Virus record (IMG/VR): IMGVR_UViG_3300042545_001229
Coordinates: 1-22,948 of that record
Length of the DNA stretch: 22,948 nt
Source: a virus
Strand: one strand, 5' to 3'
Part shown: piece by piece, positions 15,501 to 22,948 of the stretch
Layout of the letters: the number at the start of each line of letters is the position of its first letter
Numbering within the stretch: the first letter of the stretch is position 1
Position numbers and translations under genes: made by a program
The notes under the pieces: model-generated
Databases searched by the model: none
The model's input: only the letters and a program-made list of their open reading frames with translations
What the model was told of the DNA's origin: nothing

Positions 15501-17024
15501 ATTATTTCTTCTTTCAATTCTCTATTAGTAGACAGAGTACAAGGAACTCTAAATCAAAATACTGTAGATAGTCTGTACTATGTTGGTTCTTCTGGAACTT
15601 CACTTCTTTCTAATGCAACGGTAAATACCATAACCGATTTGACTGATGGATTACATTTTAAAGTAAGTCACAACAATCACGGAATGTATTCTTTGGCTGA
15701 TAAAGTTGCACTTTCGGGAATGCAACCAGATCAAAAACCTGAAACATTAAAAGCTTTATATGATTCAACATCTACAAGTAATATTTCAGTAAGTTCTGTT
15801 GGAATATTTACAAGCTTTGAGAATGTTCCAGTATCTTCCGTAAATCCCGGATATATTTTAATTGATAATGAAGTTATCAAATACACTGGAGTAGTTACAT
15901 CTACAAATAGTCTAATTGGAATAACTAGAAACATTGACGACACCATTTCTGGATCATACGATATTGAATTTCCTATCTTTAAATATGAACTGAATGGAGT
16001 ATCTCTGAGAAGAATAAATAAAACTCATAATTTATCCGACACTAACTTAGTAACTTATCCAACTGATTTAGATTATTATTATGTTAAGGTTGGAATGAGT
16101 AGTAGAGGTATTGATAGAACACCAGGAAATGTTCTTGGATATCCTGCTTTATATTTTAACGATGATAAGTCTTGTGGGTCATATGATATTGTTCCATTAC
16201 TTGGATCACCAAAAGGACCTAAAGCGACTCAGAACATACCATTTAACGTTATTAGACCAAATATTCAAACATTATTACCACAAAAAACCTCTGTATCCGC
16301 AAAGGTAAGAACCTTTAGTGGATCTACTCCAGATAGTGATTTAACTCCATTTTTAGATCAAGGATTTGTTGATATATCTCTGAATTCCAATAATGAATTT
16401 AATTCTCCAAGAATTATTTCTTCTCAAGTTAACGAAGAAACATATCTATCGAGTTTCCCTGGTAAAAAATCATTCACTATGGAGTTGACATTATCAACTC
16501 AAAATGAAAAAGTTTCTCCAATGATTGATTTGGATAGAGTAAATTTAGTTACTATTGCAAATAGAATTAATTCTAAAGTTGTAGACTATTCTACTGATCC
16601 AAGAGTTAATTCTCTGAAAGATGATCCAACTGCAGCAACATATCTAAGTAACATTGTTATTTTGGATAAGGCTGCTGATAATTTGAAAGTGTTCTTTGAT
16701 GCTTTCAGACATTCAACAAATGATATTAGAGTATGTTATAGAATCTTTAGATCTGATGCTCCTTCAGAACCTCAACTTTGGCAGTTGTTCCCGGGATATG
16801 ATAACTTGGATGCAAATCTACAAGTCATTAATTCGGCTAAAAATAATGGAAGACCTGACAAAAATGTAACAAGTTCAACATCTGAAGACAATTTCAATTC
16901 TTATGAATTTACTGCTGTTAATTTACCGCAGTTTAATGGATTCCAGATAAAGATCTTAATGTCGGGAACTAATTCAGCATTTGTTCCAAAAATTAGAGAT
17001 TTTAGAGTTATTGCAACGATTTGA
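9540..17024 (+). CDS. Giant DUF4815-type virion structural protein (probable baseplate/tail rim, T4 gp9/gp10 position)
   Basis: 2494 residues, starting six bases after the gp8 stop; a GGAG at 9525-9528 precedes the ATG by 11 bases. The N-terminus (residues 13-65: FDPTKNYQRVLFKPG, then QARELTTLQSILQ, FGKHFFKEGSVV) is the DUF4815 signature found in T4-like cyanophage and other phage structural proteins. A long beta-rich region follows, then a conserved-looking middle with a helical RLEDRIRNIEYYTSLSLLE (about residue 1120) and a Trp-rich stretch (WGSWETTW, GNWWREEQ, about 1313-1355). After a Ser/Thr/Arg/Glu-rich linker (about 1620-1650), a segment starting QSFEVPEETGIFITKCDLFF (about 1662-1820) looks like a beta-sandwich. 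A GGTGY repeat is at about residue 1955. No enzyme motif or membrane segment is visible. A baseplate-rim or fibre-attachment role is inferred from position after gp8. Confidence 0.85.
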   Translation: MAQNTNLNTSPYFDDFDPTKNYQRVLFKPGTPIQARELTTLQSILQNQVEKFGKHFFKEGSVVIPGNIAYDSEYTCVQIDPTHLSIPVITYLSYLIGKQIKGESSGVFAKIENYITSEESENDSFTLYIKYQSSSETDFTRSTFIDGENLIVLENIDYGLGVIRLESSFATTIISNSTATGSAAKIESGVYFIRGFFVDVFPQTVILDQYSNLPSYRIGLSIFEDIAVPSQENSDLFDNARGFSNFAAPGADRLRIVTTLIKKSLNDFNDENFIELLRIENGNIKRILKKEDIPSLITDELARRTTDESGDYYVTPFRVVPKESLNDKIGNNGVYNLGQLTKQGSTPSDDLLTLQISPGKAYVKGYEVETLVTVNADLEKPRTTTTVNDVTVPFSLGNQVEVNNVYGSVPVGFGSTSQVTLYSKRTATPGLPSGIPVGVARIYDLKLKNTAYSNSSTPFEASVYDVQTYTYLTLNTTITLSKPSFVEGKNSSASGYLSSSVTNSNQLVLYQTSGDFIVGEQLKIDGQDISRTIVSVRDYDLGDIRQLVGYVGTTTSFTADTAISVGVPIAPQGTTFTISAGSGGISTVTTSSSTFGVGINTGDIFVYTKSGEILPTYNRVTSVSVSAKSITIEATTSVSGINSGGLPASTTTTSGLFKGVSTLLNNKQSFLFAELQNQNVASVDVSDAEIVYRKSYSVTVASNGLTATLESDTNITLETFDEEDYSLVFSDGTVETLTSSQFTITSGRTLTLVNLSKNGSATLTVTLRKRRLKSRKKIFNRCAVLDIRNSSTRSSGIGSTTLNDGLTYSPYYGTRVQDSRISLNVPDVIFVAGVFESSDSNDAELPRLEVVDLNANILNAIKGEIIYGQSSNAIAKFVATNGTNQLEFVYINENAFIKGEKILFGESNVSARISALIEGDRNIMTDFLFDNGQTLEIVDYSSLRRKSGVTSPTKRLKIIYDYYYIDPNDTGDFVTVSSYERERYSQDLPRISYYRASDIVDLRPRVSPYNSTLTPFSPFEFDSRKFLPATNSSPYNFAKDKDLFLSYSYYLGRIDKLYLNRYGEFFVTKGVASQTPIAPNNIENAMEVATISMSPYVYNVKDVIVKLSSHKRYRMQDIARLEDRIRNIEYYTSLSLLETDTKNLSLRDSQTQLDRFKCGFLVDNFKSIRSGSLGDSQHKCSIDTIEGLLRPQHYTTSIDLLLGSESVTGISNISNPDADLRFVKDLGNPNTVKVGDVVCLKYSDEVFLKNTFATRVENVNPFNVVNWIGSIELNPSTDTWIETRGSKRTIDQEGNYEATLRALGADTNTGLSPIDWGSWETTWTGRQEIARQNVHTIFQGTTFVGSTGNWWREEQTFRDQFLTFANVTTLTTSQQSRQGIQYKVGERIDSVNLGTSVVSTEIVHVMRSRNIEFIAKRLKPKTKVYAFFDNVDMNKYVVPKLIEVQMESGTFTVGETVVGTVGTTSIKFRLSTANHKYGPYNQPEQVYTDNPYSPTQLIPISYSTTSTILNVDTASLELQSASGFYGHIITNMQLRGETSKAVAKVTDVRLVSDVSGTVIGSLFIPDSRLQSTPSFETGTKTFTLTTSSTNTPIIGATDSIADVKFRSSGTINNTEEVTLRTRNANVERTSRTEERTSTSQETALTAGTTFINRTVVQTRWVDPIAQSFEVPEETGIFITKCDLFFRTKDTNSLPITMQIRTMQTGLPTTTIIPFAEVVLDPSQVNVSEDGRTPTTFTFPSPVYLESGNDYCVVLLSVSNEYTVWISRMGEEDVTTLNLPESQKIVVSQQPLLGSMFKSQNGATWDPSQLEDLKLTLYRAKFVTGSSTVRFYNPKLDIGNNQIVTLRPNPLDCISKSTLIGLGKSLTSTEVTGLTPGSPILQRNNQTFRSNLKSIVGSVGIGSTLVVTSAGAAFTSTFKTYSNVDLVSMTGFGFGAKVNLSVQNGVAIAATVSIGGTGYAYGDSLEVNYSQTDGLGNNLILTIPNNVGIISSFNSLLVDRVQGTLNQNTVDSLYYVGSSGTSLLSNATVNTITDLTDGLHFKVSHNNHGMYSLADKVALSGMQPDQKPETLKALYDSTSTSNISVSSVGIFTSFENVPVSSVNPGYILIDNEVIKYTGVVTSTNSLIGITRNIDDTISGSYDIEFPIFKYELNGVSLRRINKTHNLSDTNLVTYPTDLDYYYVKVGMSSRGIDRTPGNVLGYPALYFNDDKSCGSYDIVPLLGSPKGPKATQNIPFNVIRPNIQTLLPQKTSVSAKVRTFSGSTPDSDLTPFLDQGFVDISLNSNNEFNSPRIISSQVNEETYLSSFPGKKSFTMELTLSTQNEKVSPMIDLDRVNLVTIANRINSKVVDYSTDPRVNSLKDDPTAATYLSNIVILDKAADNLKVFFDAFRHSTNDIRVCYRIFRSDAPSEPQLWQLFPGYDNLDANLQVINSAKNNGRPDKNVTSSTSEDNFNSYEFTAVNLPQFNGFQIKILMSGTNSAFVPKIRDFRVIATI

Positions 17025-17029
17025 AAATT

Positions 17030-17272
17030 ATGTTAGTACCTGTAGAAGGAAACATGGGGTTGTTTCGAGATGAGAACTCCAATGCTATTCTAAACTGTTC
17101 TGATTCCGAGTACAAAAAGTATTTGGAATTGAAAACAGAACGAATAAACGAAGTTGATAGATTAAATCAAATTGACAACAAGGTTAATGAAATAGATCAA
17201 TTGAAGTCTGATGTAAGTGAAATGAAAGATATGATGAAATTGATTTTGTCCAAATTAGATTCTGGATCATAA
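17030..17272 (+). CDS. Small coiled-coil conserved phage protein
   Basis: 80 residues from ATG 17030 (MLVPVEG). A TTG at 17021, overlapping the upstream TGA, would add three residues (MKI) and is the alternative start; neither has a Shine-Dalgarno sequence. The N-terminal half carries GLFRDENSNAILNC, a short motif I associate with small conserved hypothetical proteins of T4-like cyanophages. The C-terminal half (about residues 35-78) is charged with hydrophobic heptads (EIDQLKSDVSEMKDMMKLIL), predicting one coiled-coil helix. It may be a minor virion component or an assembly helper for the giant protein before it. Function unknown. Confidence 0.75.
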   Translation: MLVPVEGNMGLFRDENSNAILNCSDSEYKKYLELKTERINEVDRLNQIDNKVNEIDQLKSDVSEMKDMMKLILSKLDSGS

Positions 17273-18349: not shown

Positions 18350-19357
18350 ATGGCACTATTAGTTCCAAATATTGGAGAACTTGAGTCACTCAGATATCTG
18401 GTTGCACAAAACAACCACACAGCCAGTCTTGCTGACCAGTCTCCCAGAAATTTAATTTTAAAACTTTTTACCAGCAACACGACTCCTGCAGAGTCTGATG
18501 TGCCTTCAGATGTTAGATATTATGAACCATATGGAATTGGTAATACAAATGCTTATGGATATGCACCATCTACTGGTTATCCATATTGTGTAAACAATAG
18601 AGCAGATCAAGTTTACACTTCACAGACTGGCATTCTATTAAATGGTTCTCGTTGGAGAATTAATCAAGTTGGTTCTGGTACAACTGCAACATATCCAGAA
18701 CAGACATTTACCTTCACTGGAGAAGCTGGAGATGTCTATGGTTATTATGTAACTCGTGCAAATAATATGCCTGTTGCTGTGCAAGGTGTTGTACACTATG
18801 CTTCTGTTGGTATCGGAACAACCGTATCTAAGGGAGATAATACCGATCCAGTTATTGGAGTTATTGGAAATCAATATATTACAATTGATCCAGATCAGAG
18901 TGTTGATGACCTAACTTTAGGAATGATTGTTGGTGGTAATGCTGGCATTCAGACAGGAACTCAGGTTATTGGTGTTGATAGAGCATTAAAAGTTGTATAT
19001 CTAGATAAATCTCTTATCGATAACATCCAAGTTGCTACAGATCCAAGCGTTACATTTAGTTATGGTAAGATTGTAGCTAATGGACACCAATTAGTAGCAG
19101 GAGATATTCTTTATGTTGCTGCTGGTACTGGAAATACAACAGTACAATCAAATACGTATACCGTATTCTCTGTCCCAAATGCAAATGAGTTCTATACAAC
19201 TCCTGCATTGACTCCGGTTTCAAATTCTACTGTTGGATTAAATACAGCAACTCTTTATAGTTCTATAATGTACGCTGAAAGATTTACGAATGGTCCTTAC
19301 ACGATTCAAAATAATGGAGACCAGATTAAAATTACATTAAATGTTGCTCTTGATTGA
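18350..19357 (+). CDS. Conserved virion structural protein (cyanophage type)
   Basis: 335 residues, MALLVPNIGELESLRYLVAQ at the N-terminus, with a helix-like start and then beta-rich sequence. The ending (YAERFTNGPYTIQNNGDQIKITLNVALD) resembles the C-terminus of conserved cyanophage structural proteins as I remember them. The central part (residues about 150-260) has GIGTTVSKG and a VIGNQYITIDP...LTLGMIVGGNAGIQTGTQVIGVD segment, typical of repetitive fibre or adhesin-like beta structure. Codons are somewhat richer in G and C than in the giant genes, and the gene has an exact late promoter, a strong Shine-Dalgarno sequence and a terminator 30 bases after its stop. That is the signature of a separately and highly expressed virion component. 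Possibly a fibre or head/tail decoration protein; role not proven. Confidence 0.8.
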   Translation: MALLVPNIGELESLRYLVAQNNHTASLADQSPRNLILKLFTSNTTPAESDVPSDVRYYEPYGIGNTNAYGYAPSTGYPYCVNNRADQVYTSQTGILLNGSRWRINQVGSGTTATYPEQTFTFTGEAGDVYGYYVTRANNMPVAVQGVVHYASVGIGTTVSKGDNTDPVIGVIGNQYITIDPDQSVDDLTLGMIVGGNAGIQTGTQVIGVDRALKVVYLDKSLIDNIQVATDPSVTFSYGKIVANGHQLVAGDILYVAAGTGNTTVQSNTYTVFSVPNANEFYTTPALTPVSNSTVGLNTATLYSSIMYAERFTNGPYTIQNNGDQIKITLNVALD

Positions 19358-19447: not shown

Positions 19448-19825
19448 ATGAATATCTACGAGTATAACTCATCATCCATAAATGAATACTTGGAAGAAGA
19501 TTTTGGAAGTATTACTTCTTTTCCAAGTGAAGTGTTTGACTGCCAAAAATTGAGTAGTAATTGTGAGGTAGTTGATAATTATGGAAATATTACATGCAAT
19601 GAAACTTTAATTCCTTTTGGAAGTATTAGAATAGAACCATCTAAAGAAAAAGAGACTTATAAAATAATTTCTTCCGAAGCTAGAAAATTTGAAGATATTA
19701 ATAAAAAATCTATTCTATTACATGGAATTGTATTCAGATGGATTGGATTTAATGTTATATTTGAATCTAATAGTTCATTAATAAGACAAGTTATTCCCGA
19801 TGTATCTGGAGGTGGAGTAAAATGA
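19448..19825 (+). CDS. Small protein sharing a module with the following repeat protein
   Basis: 125 residues from ATG 19448, with AGGG six bases upstream (19438-19441). An upstream in-frame TTG (19418) lies in the terminator T-run and is unlikely to be used. The N-terminus EYNSSSINEYLEEDFGSIT matches the form of SYNESSVLLYTTEDYDTL near the N-terminus of the next gene, and IPFGSIRIEPSKEKETYKI resembles its VPYGSLSISGSAVE units. It therefore looks like a single-copy relative of the neighbouring repeats. Later it is more hydrophobic (ILLHGIVFRWIGFNVIFESN). Three Cys occur in residues about 30-50. Its stop overlaps the next start (ATGA, 19822-19825), so the two are probably translationally coupled and may act in the same fibre. 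Function unknown. Confidence 0.75.
   Translation: MNIYEYNSSSINEYLEEDFGSITSFPSEVFDCQKLSSNCEVVDNYGNITCNETLIPFGSIRIEPSKEKETYKIISSEARKFEDINKKSILLHGIVFRWIGFNVIFESNSSLIRQVIPDVSGGGVK
19808..19817 (+). promoter_or_regulatory. Strong Shine-Dalgarno sequence for the repeat protein
   Basis: GGAGGTGGAG, inside the end of the previous gene, places GGAGG nine bases before ATG 19822. Together with the ATGA overlap it fixes the start of the large repeat protein. Confidence 0.75.
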
Positions 19826-22800
19826 CTGACTTCAGTTATCAGGGAATACCACAAAATATTCAATTACAACAAACTTGTTTAGAAGAAATATCTATATCAT
19901 ATAATGAATCTTCCGTACTTCTCTACACTACGGAAGATTATGATACACTACAGGGAATATTACAACCGAATGGTTTTAGTAATAATACAATAAATTTTAG
20001 TCAAACAACGCATACTTTTGACGAAATAAATGATGTATATGATTTGTCGGATGACTATGGACTCATAAGTGTACCGGCTTCAATTAGTGTTGACAATGGT
20101 TCTGTACTAACTTCTACCAGTCTGTATCCTTTTGGTGGATTAACATTTGGTGGATCAGCAAATACTGAATATGTTGATAAGATTTTTTACGGATCTGCAA
20201 AATATAACTTTGTTCACCATCCAAATGATATTGGTGGAACTTTATTTGGATTCGGTGAAAAATTAGAAAGTAAAACTTACGATTATAACGAATCTTCTGT
20301 ACTTCTCTACACAACAGAAGATCTCGGTGATCTAAATGTCACATCTGATTCACCGGACGACTACGGACTTGTAAGTGTACCGGCTTCATTTAGTTTTGAT
20401 CAGGGCTCTATACTAACTTCTACTAGTCTTTATCCTTTCGGTGGATTAACATTTAGTGGATCAGCTATAACTCAAGTAAATTATAGACTATACCTCTCTG
20501 GAACATCTGTAGAAAAAGTAACGTATAGTCCAGAAGGAACTGGAACTCTATTTGGATTTGGACAAGTACTAGAGAGTAGAAGCTACAGATACAATGAACC
20601 ATTAGTTCCATATGGTTCATTAAGTATTTCTGGATCTGCTGTAGAATCATTTACTTTAGATCAACCGGAATCAACTCAACTGTTTGAAATTTATGGTAAA
20701 GCAGTACTCAATGTAACCCCAAGATTCTATGGAAGGGGATCATTTGTTGCTTCTGGACAAGCTATAGAGAAAGATTCGGATACTTATGTAGCTTCAGGAT
20801 CACTCTTCAGCTTTGGAGAGAAAGTTGAGAGTATCACCTACAGATATAGTGAAGATTCGATTGAAGATTCCATAAACGATTATGGATCTATTTTAGATAC
20901 TAATCTTACAGTATTTGAAGATTCTGGATTTATTACTGACAACCCAGGACCAATATTAGATTATGGATTGATTTCCTTAGATATCATACAACCACTAGTT
21001 CCATATGGTTCATTAAGTATTTCTGGATCTTCTGTAGAAAGATTTACTTCAGACTATCTAGAATCAACTCAACTGTTTGAAATTTCTGGATCTGCTTCTG
21101 ATATTAAACTTGCATTCTCTTCTGACACTACTCAGATCTTCCAGATATATGGACAAGCTATAGAGAAAGATTCGGATACCTATATTGGCCAAGGTTCTCT
21201 ATTCACCTTTGGCGAGAAAGTAGAGAGTAGGACCTATAGATACAGCGAAGACTCCGTAGACGATCCCACAGACGACTATGGATCTGTTGTAGACGATGAT
21301 CTTACTGGACTCCAGGATTATGAATTTATCATTAATGATCCAACATCTACAATTGATCATGGTTCCATTATTGAAAGTATCCTTAGTAATCAGTACCCAT
21401 ATGGTTCATTAAGTATTTCTGGATCTGCTGTAGAAAGATCTACTTCAGACTATTCGGGATCAACTCAACTGTTTGAAATTTCTGGATCTGCTTCTGACAC
21501 TAGAACATATTATACAGAGAATACCCAACTCTTCCAGATATATGGACAAGCTATAGAGAAAGATTCAGATACTTATGTAACTTCTGGATCACTCTTTAGC
21601 TTTGGGGAGAAAGTAGAGAGTAGAAGCTACAGATACAGCGAACCATTAGTTCCATATGGTTCATTAAGTATTTCTGGATCTGCTGTAGAGAAATTTACTT
21701 CAAATTATCTGAAGTCAGTTCAACTATTTCAAATTTCTGGATCTGCTTCTGATATTAAACTTACATTCTCTTCTGACACTACTCAGATCTTCCAGATATA
21801 TGGACAAGCTATAACGAAGGATGTAGATTCTTATGTTGCTACTGGATCACTCTTTGGGTTCTCTTCTGGACTAGAAAGTTTTGTACAGAGATATGGTGGT
21901 TTTGGATCAATTAATATCTCTGGTTCCAAGTTTGAAAGTTTCACCAGAACTACTTATATTGGATCTGGTATAATTTCTCTTAGTGGAGATTCTAGAAATT
22001 ACTCCCCAGTTTATCCAATAAATTCTGGAGATCCTAATGCTGGAAAGGGAATTATCCAGATTGTTGATGCAGGATCAATTTACAGGGCAACTCTACCATA
22101 CAAAGCTAAGGGATCTATATTTGTATCTGGTTTTGGTAATGAAAGCTTTATAAGAACGAATTATACAGGTTCCGGATTAATAACCTTCTCCGGAAGATCT
22201 TTTAATAGAGAAATTGCAGTATATGCAAATATTGGATCTGGATTTATTCAGATTTCCACTCAAACTCAACCAATAATTGAAAAGAACACCGAATCATATT
22301 CGGGCTCTGGAACAATTACTTTATCAGATCAAAGAGTTAATAGGAGAGCCTTTAGTTATTCTGGTAATGGTTCAGTCAAACTAACTTCAAGTGCTCAAGA
22401 ATCACTTTCCTCTCAAACTCCAGAACAAACAATTCTCTTTAATACATCTGGAACTGCAAGAGAAAGATTTATTGCACAAACACCTGAAACAGAGGTACTT
22501 TATGAATTTAGTGGAAATTCTGTTCTAAGAAAGGGATTTGCTTATGCTGGATTTGGTCAAATACTCTTTGCAGAATCCTCCTCAGTTGTTACATTTACAT
22601 CCAGTATTTCTGGCCAAGGAACAATCAGATTCAAAACTCATCTGGTTGATAATACTTATGATACTTGTGATTCCGAAGATATTACTTGTGATTATGAAAA
22701 TAGTGCTTCTATAAGATTTGTAGCTAATCCACCAGAATCTACACAACTATTCAATGTCTTTGGATTTGCAAACACCAATCAAATACACACTAATGAGTAT

Positions 22801-22948
22801 ATTGGTCTCGGTAATATTCAAATTTCGGAATCTATTGGAAGAATACGAAAAATCAACTCCTATGTTGGTGTAGGAACTATATTCGAATTATCTGCAAGTC
22901 AAGTATATGATGTCGATTCGTATGTAGGGAAGGGAACTTTATTTGCAC
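19822..22948 (+). CDS. Large repetitive fibre-like structural protein, 3'-truncated
   Basis: Starts at ATG 19822 (ATGA overlap, strong Shine-Dalgarno) and stays open for 1042 codons to the window edge; I read every codon and found no stop. The whole protein is built of short beta repeats of roughly 20-40 residues, such as YxGSGxIxISGxAxE and GSLFxFGEKVESRxYRYSE. Residues about 27-215 hold two copies of SYNESSVLLYTTED plus DDYGLxSVPASxS...LTSTSLYPFGGLTF. Residues about 260-680 hold four near-identical VPYGSLSISGSAVE blocks alternating with IYGQAIEKDSDTY units. After about residue 690 the repeats diverge. There are no Cys except a few (first residues, and TCDSEDITCDYE near 22660-22695). No enzyme motif, signal peptide or membrane segment is seen. 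This is the look of a fibre shaft or other long surface protein; host-contact role inferred. Confidence 0.85.
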   Translation, partial: MTDFSYQGIPQNIQLQQTCLEEISISYNESSVLLYTTEDYDTLQGILQPNGFSNNTINFSQTTHTFDEINDVYDLSDDYGLISVPASISVDNGSVLTSTSLYPFGGLTFGGSANTEYVDKIFYGSAKYNFVHHPNDIGGTLFGFGEKLESKTYDYNESSVLLYTTEDLGDLNVTSDSPDDYGLVSVPASFSFDQGSILTSTSLYPFGGLTFSGSAITQVNYRLYLSGTSVEKVTYSPEGTGTLFGFGQVLESRSYRYNEPLVPYGSLSISGSAVESFTLDQPESTQLFEIYGKAVLNVTPRFYGRGSFVASGQAIEKDSDTYVASGSLFSFGEKVESITYRYSEDSIEDSINDYGSILDTNLTVFEDSGFITDNPGPILDYGLISLDIIQPLVPYGSLSISGSSVERFTSDYLESTQLFEISGSASDIKLAFSSDTTQIFQIYGQAIEKDSDTYIGQGSLFTFGEKVESRTYRYSEDSVDDPTDDYGSVVDDDLTGLQDYEFIINDPTSTIDHGSIIESILSNQYPYGSLSISGSAVERSTSDYSGSTQLFEISGSASDTRTYYTENTQLFQIYGQAIEKDSDTYVTSGSLFSFGEKVESRSYRYSEPLVPYGSLSISGSAVEKFTSNYLKSVQLFQISGSASDIKLTFSSDTTQIFQIYGQAITKDVDSYVATGSLFGFSSGLESFVQRYGGFGSINISGSKFESFTRTTYIGSGIISLSGDSRNYSPVYPINSGDPNAGKGIIQIVDAGSIYRATLPYKAKGSIFVSGFGNESFIRTNYTGSGLITFSGRSFNREIAVYANIGSGFIQISTQTQPIIEKNTESYSGSGTITLSDQRVNRRAFSYSGNGSVKLTSSAQESLSSQTPEQTILFNTSGTARERFIAQTPETEVLYEFSGNSVLRKGFAYAGFGQILFAESSSVVTFTSSISGQGTIRFKTHLVDNTYDTCDSEDITCDYENSASIRFVANPPESTQLFNVFGFANTNQIHTNEYIGLGNIQISESIGRIRKINSYVGVGTIFELSASQVYDVDSYVGKGTLFA
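19900..20466 (+). repeat. Two-copy module at the N-terminal part of the repeat protein
   Basis: The segment beginning TATAATGAATCTTCCGTACT (19900) recurs at 20284, and the DDYGLxSVPAS...FGGLTF segment at 20050-20160 recurs at 20356-20466. Spacings are 384 and 306 bases, both multiples of three, so the middle differs by 78 bases. Many differences are synonymous (TCC/TCT, TAT/TAC, AAT/AAC), so the protein module is held by selection. Confidence 0.8.
20608..21833 (+). repeat. In-frame near-identical direct repeats encoding fibre blocks
   Basis: CCATATGGTTCATTAAGTAT begins at 20608, 21001, 21397 and 21652, spaced 393, 396 and 255 bases (131, 132 and 85 codons). Each copy leads into TTTCTGGATCT and GTAGA, and then a TTTGAAATTTCTGGATCTGC (or similar) segment. 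A second repeat, GGACAAGCTATAGAGAAAGA, occurs near 20755, 21157 and 21544, with a variant near 21808. The segments starting at 21001 and 21652 stay close for about 180 bases. High DNA identity in frame suggests recent duplication or recombination. Confidence 0.88.

Follow-up and report, generated by a model that had tools for sequence, protein, structure and literature searches.

In phage T4, variation in the long tail fibre protein gp37 is located at the C-terminal tip. Duplications of small domains in this tip are reported to expand host range (Tetart et al. 1996, J Mol Biol 258:726; cited in PMC9603124). Pelagimyophages and cyanomyophages carry a host recognition cluster, in which the structural module is hypervariable between VrlC and the neck gene and contains several fibre genes (PMC7029224), and hypervariable fibre genes are already known in marine phages (PMC3909814). 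The antireceptors of Streptococcus thermophilus phages contain variable regions as well as collagen-like repeats, as described in an article (PMC5601072) citing Duplessis and Moineau 2001. Here we report on a repeat-built gene at the 3′ end of a viral DNA stretch of 22,948 nucleotides (nt), hereafter the window (IMG/VR record IMGVR_UViG_3300042545_001229, positions 1 to 22,948), in which a small N-terminal cap is encoded separately from the main open reading frame (ORF). The gene belongs to the host-recognition cluster of a freshwater, T4-like cyanophage and probably encodes a long virion adhesin, either a fibre or a fibre-like protein, with recombining modules.

As in gp37, a small part of the putative adhesin gene appears to have been duplicated by recombination. 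However, no sequence relation to gp37 was found, profile and Pfam searches gave no family match between the window protein and T4 gp34–37, and the C-terminus is here the constant part. The gene occupies a genomic position equivalent to that of the pelagimyophage and cyanomyophage cluster and likewise lies in a hypervariable structural-module region, but variability there is described at the level of the island, whereas here it concerns modules within one gene and has identifiable crossover sites. The S. thermophilus antireceptors, insofar as the citing article describes them, similarly combine repeats between domains with variable regions in a receptor-binding protein, although the repeat type and phage group differ and the likeness is one of description. 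What is new here is the protein family, a layout of constant and variable parts that is reversed relative to gp37, the split cap and direct footprints of recombination. A cap that is split off or fused, together with a constant C-terminus, suggests a fibre architecture unlike that of the T4 long tail fibre.

The main ORF (19822..22947, plus strand, as are all features below) runs for 1042 codons without a stop up to the window end, in agreement with a preliminary description of this DNA that noted an uninterrupted frame of at least this length. The rest of the gene was found in a near-identical contig, L002, which is 99.96% identical to the window over 13,127 nt and carries the full gene of 1199 amino acids (aa). 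Therefore, just 157 residues are absent from the window and the size of the gene is not exceptional; ‘very large’, as it had been called, is an overstatement, because the tail-fibre gene downstream of it and two of the genes upstream are longer. Within the main ORF, a non-repeated N-terminal segment (codons 1–60, 20002 being the first position after it; 19822..20001) with 82–90% DNA identity to relative L011 precedes a repeat zone (codons 61–670; 20002..21831), which is followed by a constant C-terminal region (codons 671–1042; 21832..22947) that lacks internal DNA repeats and extends to residue 1199 in L002, where it ends in the peptide IPRSYVIII.

The preceding 125-aa ORF (19448..19825), which ends in an ATGA overlap between its own stop codon and the main start codon, corresponds to the N-terminal part of the repeat protein, here detached from it, and thus the feature should start at 19448. 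In blastp searches this cap matches the N-terminus of all 43 proteins of the fused class, with E values from 4e-16 to 6e-5, and has no match among main ORFs of the split class. Across loci, the cap is fused to the repeat protein in 43 and is a separate ORF in 29, with the window belonging to the separate type.

The repeat zone contains four copies of a repeat family, D1, with 157-nt cores at 20540..20696, 20933..21089, 21329..21485 and 21584..21740. Their start-to-start distances of 393, 396 and 255 nt correspond exactly to the 131, 132 and 85 codons given in the preliminary description, the last spacing being roughly 46 codons shorter. The description of these blocks as nearly identical is too strong: copies share 61–82% identity with the reference copy over 157 nt, and even the closest pair, blocks 2 and 4, reaches 88% over 198 nt in the window and 91–92% over 150 nt in L002. 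An earlier repeat type, D6, precedes the D1 blocks as two 143-nt copies (20027..20169 and 20333..20475) that are 81% identical at an offset of 102 codons; the preliminary description recognized neither this pair nor the detached cap.

Exact repeat cores in the window range from 24 to 50 nt, and every offset between them is a whole number of codons. By comparison, no exact repeat longer than 18 nt arises when the gene is codon-shuffled (200 versions). Two 50-nt exact repeats constitute candidate in-frame crossover sites: 21113..21162, with a twin at 21764–21813 (offset 217 codons), and 20596..20645, with a twin at 21640–21689 (offset 348 codons). Tandem Repeats Finder reported no tandem array in the window gene, because the repeat copies are diverged and separated by spacers.

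The repeat zone also exhibits concerted evolution. Most 150-nt segments of codons 61–670 find their best DNA match elsewhere in the same gene, whereas those of codons 1–60 and 681–1199 mostly find it in another phage. Among 36 distinct genes, the longest internal exact repeat has a median of 40 nt and a maximum of 203 nt; 23 of the 36 carry an internal exact repeat of at least 30 nt, at a whole-codon offset in every one of these 23, and such repeats in the upstream control gene are at most 17 nt long. Furthermore, three upstream proteins of relative L010 are 96, 98 and 97% identical to those of the window phage and the next two are 87 and 93% identical, but the repeat protein is only 39% identical. 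Relative L011 has the cap (89%) and the initial portion of the main ORF in common with the window and is divergent afterwards. Mosaic patterns of this type would be the expected outcome of allelic exchange.

To compare repeat number among relatives, we used a 335-aa neighbour (18350..19357; phrog_10467), which is 84–93% identical in relatives other than window-type contigs, as a syntenic marker. A search with this neighbour retrieved 80 loci, and further loci were added with a C-terminal profile. The repeat gene follows the neighbour wherever the downstream sequence suffices. Complete genes encode 737–2636 aa in the loci found through the neighbour, and 619 aa is reached in loci from the C-terminal profile; the 1020-aa gene of L040 represents a truncated case. 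Repeat number is therefore not fixed, and the proposal that in-frame modules expand, contract and exchange is borne out by this range of 619–2636 aa at the same locus and by the individual events described below.

Indels between close pairs (at least 75% identity) are in frame, and many comprise whole units of around 20 aa or their multiples (18, 20, 21, 23, 41, 59, 81 and 82 aa), although other sizes (38, 47, 50 and 71 aa) also occur. In the same pairs, the adjacent 2500-aa upstream gene, which served as the control, exhibits no indel of 5 aa or more, and close pairs include some in which this gene is 99.8% identical. The clearest footprint distinguishes L078 from L140: the shorter gene, of 7,128 nt, has lost 780 nt (260 codons) between two 195-nt exact direct repeats and otherwise matches the longer one at 100% identity, a pattern that would match the product of homologous recombination between direct repeats. 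Length haplotypes of 1607 aa (L058 and L126) and 1773 aa (L059, and L057 as far as it is readable) lend independent support: both were recovered in two assemblies, and the neighbouring protein of 335 aa is identical. In L068, 54 nt (18 aa) are missing relative to six contigs whose genes are otherwise identical, with 2 nt of homology at the junction, which indicates that short-homology deletion contributes too.

The C-terminal end is the constant part of the protein. The last 510 aa or so are conserved at 33–49% identity to the window type across 25 relatives, and 84 of 85 complete family proteins, including those of isolates S-CAM1, S-CAM3, S-SSM7, Sf-FS3 and S-SCSM2R, end in R-[TVSA]-[YF]-x-x-[IV]-[IV]. 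This constant region also contains a conserved Cys/Asp-rich motif (22585–22740; D-N-D-Y-D-T-C-D-S-x-x-I-T-C-D), an 18–21-aa copy of which is gained or lost elsewhere in the protein (insertions in L039 and L063). A role for this motif as a metal-binding module is possible.

The window protein belongs to the phrog_11522 family, whose profile it matches in five stretches (E = 6.4e-42 for the part in the window and 1.2e-44 for the full protein), and for which PHROGs lists the function as unknown. A literature search found no description of a phrog_11522-type family. No Pfam domain scored above the cut-off, and matches to FAIM1 and Ribophorin II were rejected for falling below it. Members from isolates comprise 2130 aa in S-CAM1, 2558 aa in S-CAM3, 1529 and 1552 aa in S-SSM7 and S-SSM6a, 1505 aa in Sf-FS3 and 1369 aa in S-SCSM2R. 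As in the window, these follow a phrog_10467-type protein and carry the C-terminal peptide, but they are 23–29% identical to the window protein where aligned, and the number and order of their modules differ. The window also differs in having the cap as a separate ORF. The S-SCSM2R homologue (L007:9346-13455) has FG-GAP_2 beta-propeller repeats inserted mid-protein (E = 4.9e-43), which suggests that the repeat zone accepts whole binding domains. The annotation of this homologue as TolB was rejected as a family name, since the match corresponds to the inserted propeller.

The repeat gene resides in a tail and host-recognition module. Baseplate gene gp8, a gene for a 2494-aa DUF4815 protein, genes for small tail-associated proteins and the conserved 335-aa gene lie upstream, and downstream lies a gene of 1947 aa whose product contains an Mtd_N domain and matches tail-fibre PHROG families. 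Marine isolates S-SSM7, S-SSM6a, Sf-FS3 and S-SCSM2R share this gene order, and more distant homologues occupy a similar position in S-CAM1 and S-CAM3. Two photosystem reaction-centre genes (Photo_RC) are present in a 249-kb relative and suggest that the host is a cyanobacterium.

The sequences thus show the architecture, the synteny, gain and loss of in-frame modules between relatives, concerted evolution and footprints of recombination. We infer from this setting and from the repeat composition that the protein would be located on the virion, adopt an elongated multimeric beta fold and contact a receptor, and that its variability would have been selected for this reason. Its plan comprises the small N-terminal cap, a middle of roughly 20-aa units arranged in modules of 85–132 codons and the constant C-terminal half, which probably anchors the protein on the virion or nucleates assembly, with the cap closing the opposite end. 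The middle zone would be the part that the virus varies, its modules serving as in-frame recombination cassettes that alter length and surface. Homologous recombination within and between genomes may remove, add or convert whole modules, keeping the frame because the modules are similar in DNA sequence and in register, and occasional short-homology deletions may likewise remove modules in frame. Such variation most likely alters contact between the virus and its cyanobacterial host.

Several observations weigh against this interpretation. AlphaFold2 monomer models of the C-terminal 510 aa (26 sequences) and of the block region (25 sequences) contain strands only, but their pLDDT (predicted local distance difference test) values of 32.3 and 33.6 mean that no usable model was obtained (pLDDT 32–34), and for the phrog_11522-type family neither virion proteomics nor a structure is known. 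Profile searches of the PDB returned no fibre match and only weak ones, the best at E = 0.006; those to antibody light chains (E around 0.01) were rejected as without bearing, given the Ser/Gly/Tyr-rich composition. The term fibre thus draws on genomic context and on all-strand, Gly/Ser-rich repeats, since the predictions failed and neither a related solved structure nor a Pfam domain was found. With only 2 nt of homology at its junction, the L068 deletion did not arise by homologous recombination. Structure and copy number, where readable, are the same in window-type contigs from three datasets, six S-CAM1 isolates (with 8–18 point differences) and three S-CAM3 isolates are fixed in length, and several clusters or lineages at 92–100% identity have no indel, some of them (92–95%) despite point changes. 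Given these fixed structures, the earlier characterization of the gene as actively rearranging does not hold for this phage: rearrangement is evident between lineages and in some near-identical pairs, judged from their sequences, but not as a rapid process here.

Fixed isolates would also be expected if the repeats were old and static and the copy-number differences were artefacts of short-read assembly. The longest repeats (195 and 203 nt) do exceed typical short reads, so the L078/L140 difference could still be an assembly collapse, and the assembly of one window-type sample is interrupted within the repeat zone, between the end of L004 at 21134 and the start of L003 at 21173. Nevertheless, length variants recur in independent assemblies (the 1607-aa and 1773-aa types twice each, and a 755-aa type in six contigs), the 54-nt L068 deletion does not coincide with a repeat, the unit indels of L041/L042 and L014/L017 fall between diverged units, and eight contigs with the 203-nt repeat agree with one another. 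Assembly artefact is therefore unlikely to be the sole cause of length variation, and we regard a static, artefactual origin as very improbable. Marginally less probable still is a secreted or internal late protein, such as a decoy, an injected protein or a host-surface protein, encoded within the structural operon by chance. This would accord with the missing proteomic evidence for the family and the lack of a Pfam domain in the window protein, but not with a position and strand within an unbroken series of baseplate and tail genes, a beta-repeat composition with no enzyme signature, or hypervariability typical of virion proteins that contact the host.

A more serious, although still rather unlikely, alternative is that the protein is a structural spacer or rope within the tail-fibre complex, such that length varies rather than receptor contact, and the downstream Mtd_N fibre bears the receptor-binding tip. 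Constant ends around a variable, repetitive middle resemble a length-variable linker, a dedicated tail-fibre gene with an Mtd_N domain adjoins, and the 335-aa neighbour is annotated as ‘tail fiber rope protein’ in S-SCSM2R. However, divergence is extreme in sequence and not in length alone (39% identity where flanking proteins have 96–98%), and one relative carries a whole inserted FG-GAP propeller, both of which better suit surface contact, as the adhesin reading would have it.

More tentatively, the adhesin gene could represent a diversification locus that operates without reverse transcriptase, wherein constant ends bracket in-register modules of similar DNA sequence that recombine at a high rate within infected cells. 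If so, a single cyanophage population would continually sample adhesin lengths and surfaces. In any case, a family of hypervariable proteins that is unannotated in abundant cyanophages becomes a testable case of adhesin evolution through in-frame module recombination: its constant and variable parts are clear, its crossover sites can be identified, and some of its carriers are in culture (S-CAM1, S-SSM7 and S-SCSM2R).

Other genes in this region vary as well. The Mtd_N tail-fibre gene lies directly downstream of the repeat gene in L002 (13654-19497), and its counterpart in L068 and L071 exceeds 2500 aa, contains long repeats of its own and is not the same in contigs that are nearly identical otherwise, and so this gene may rearrange too. 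Where the downstream tail-fibre gene begins, L070 (13417-13622) and L071 (near 4854) differ by about 209 nt, which is not a multiple of 3, and are 100% identical elsewhere in the same stretch. Upstream, an 83-aa ORF (17021-17272) amid well conserved genes is unusually divergent in relatives (36–98% identity, median 53%).

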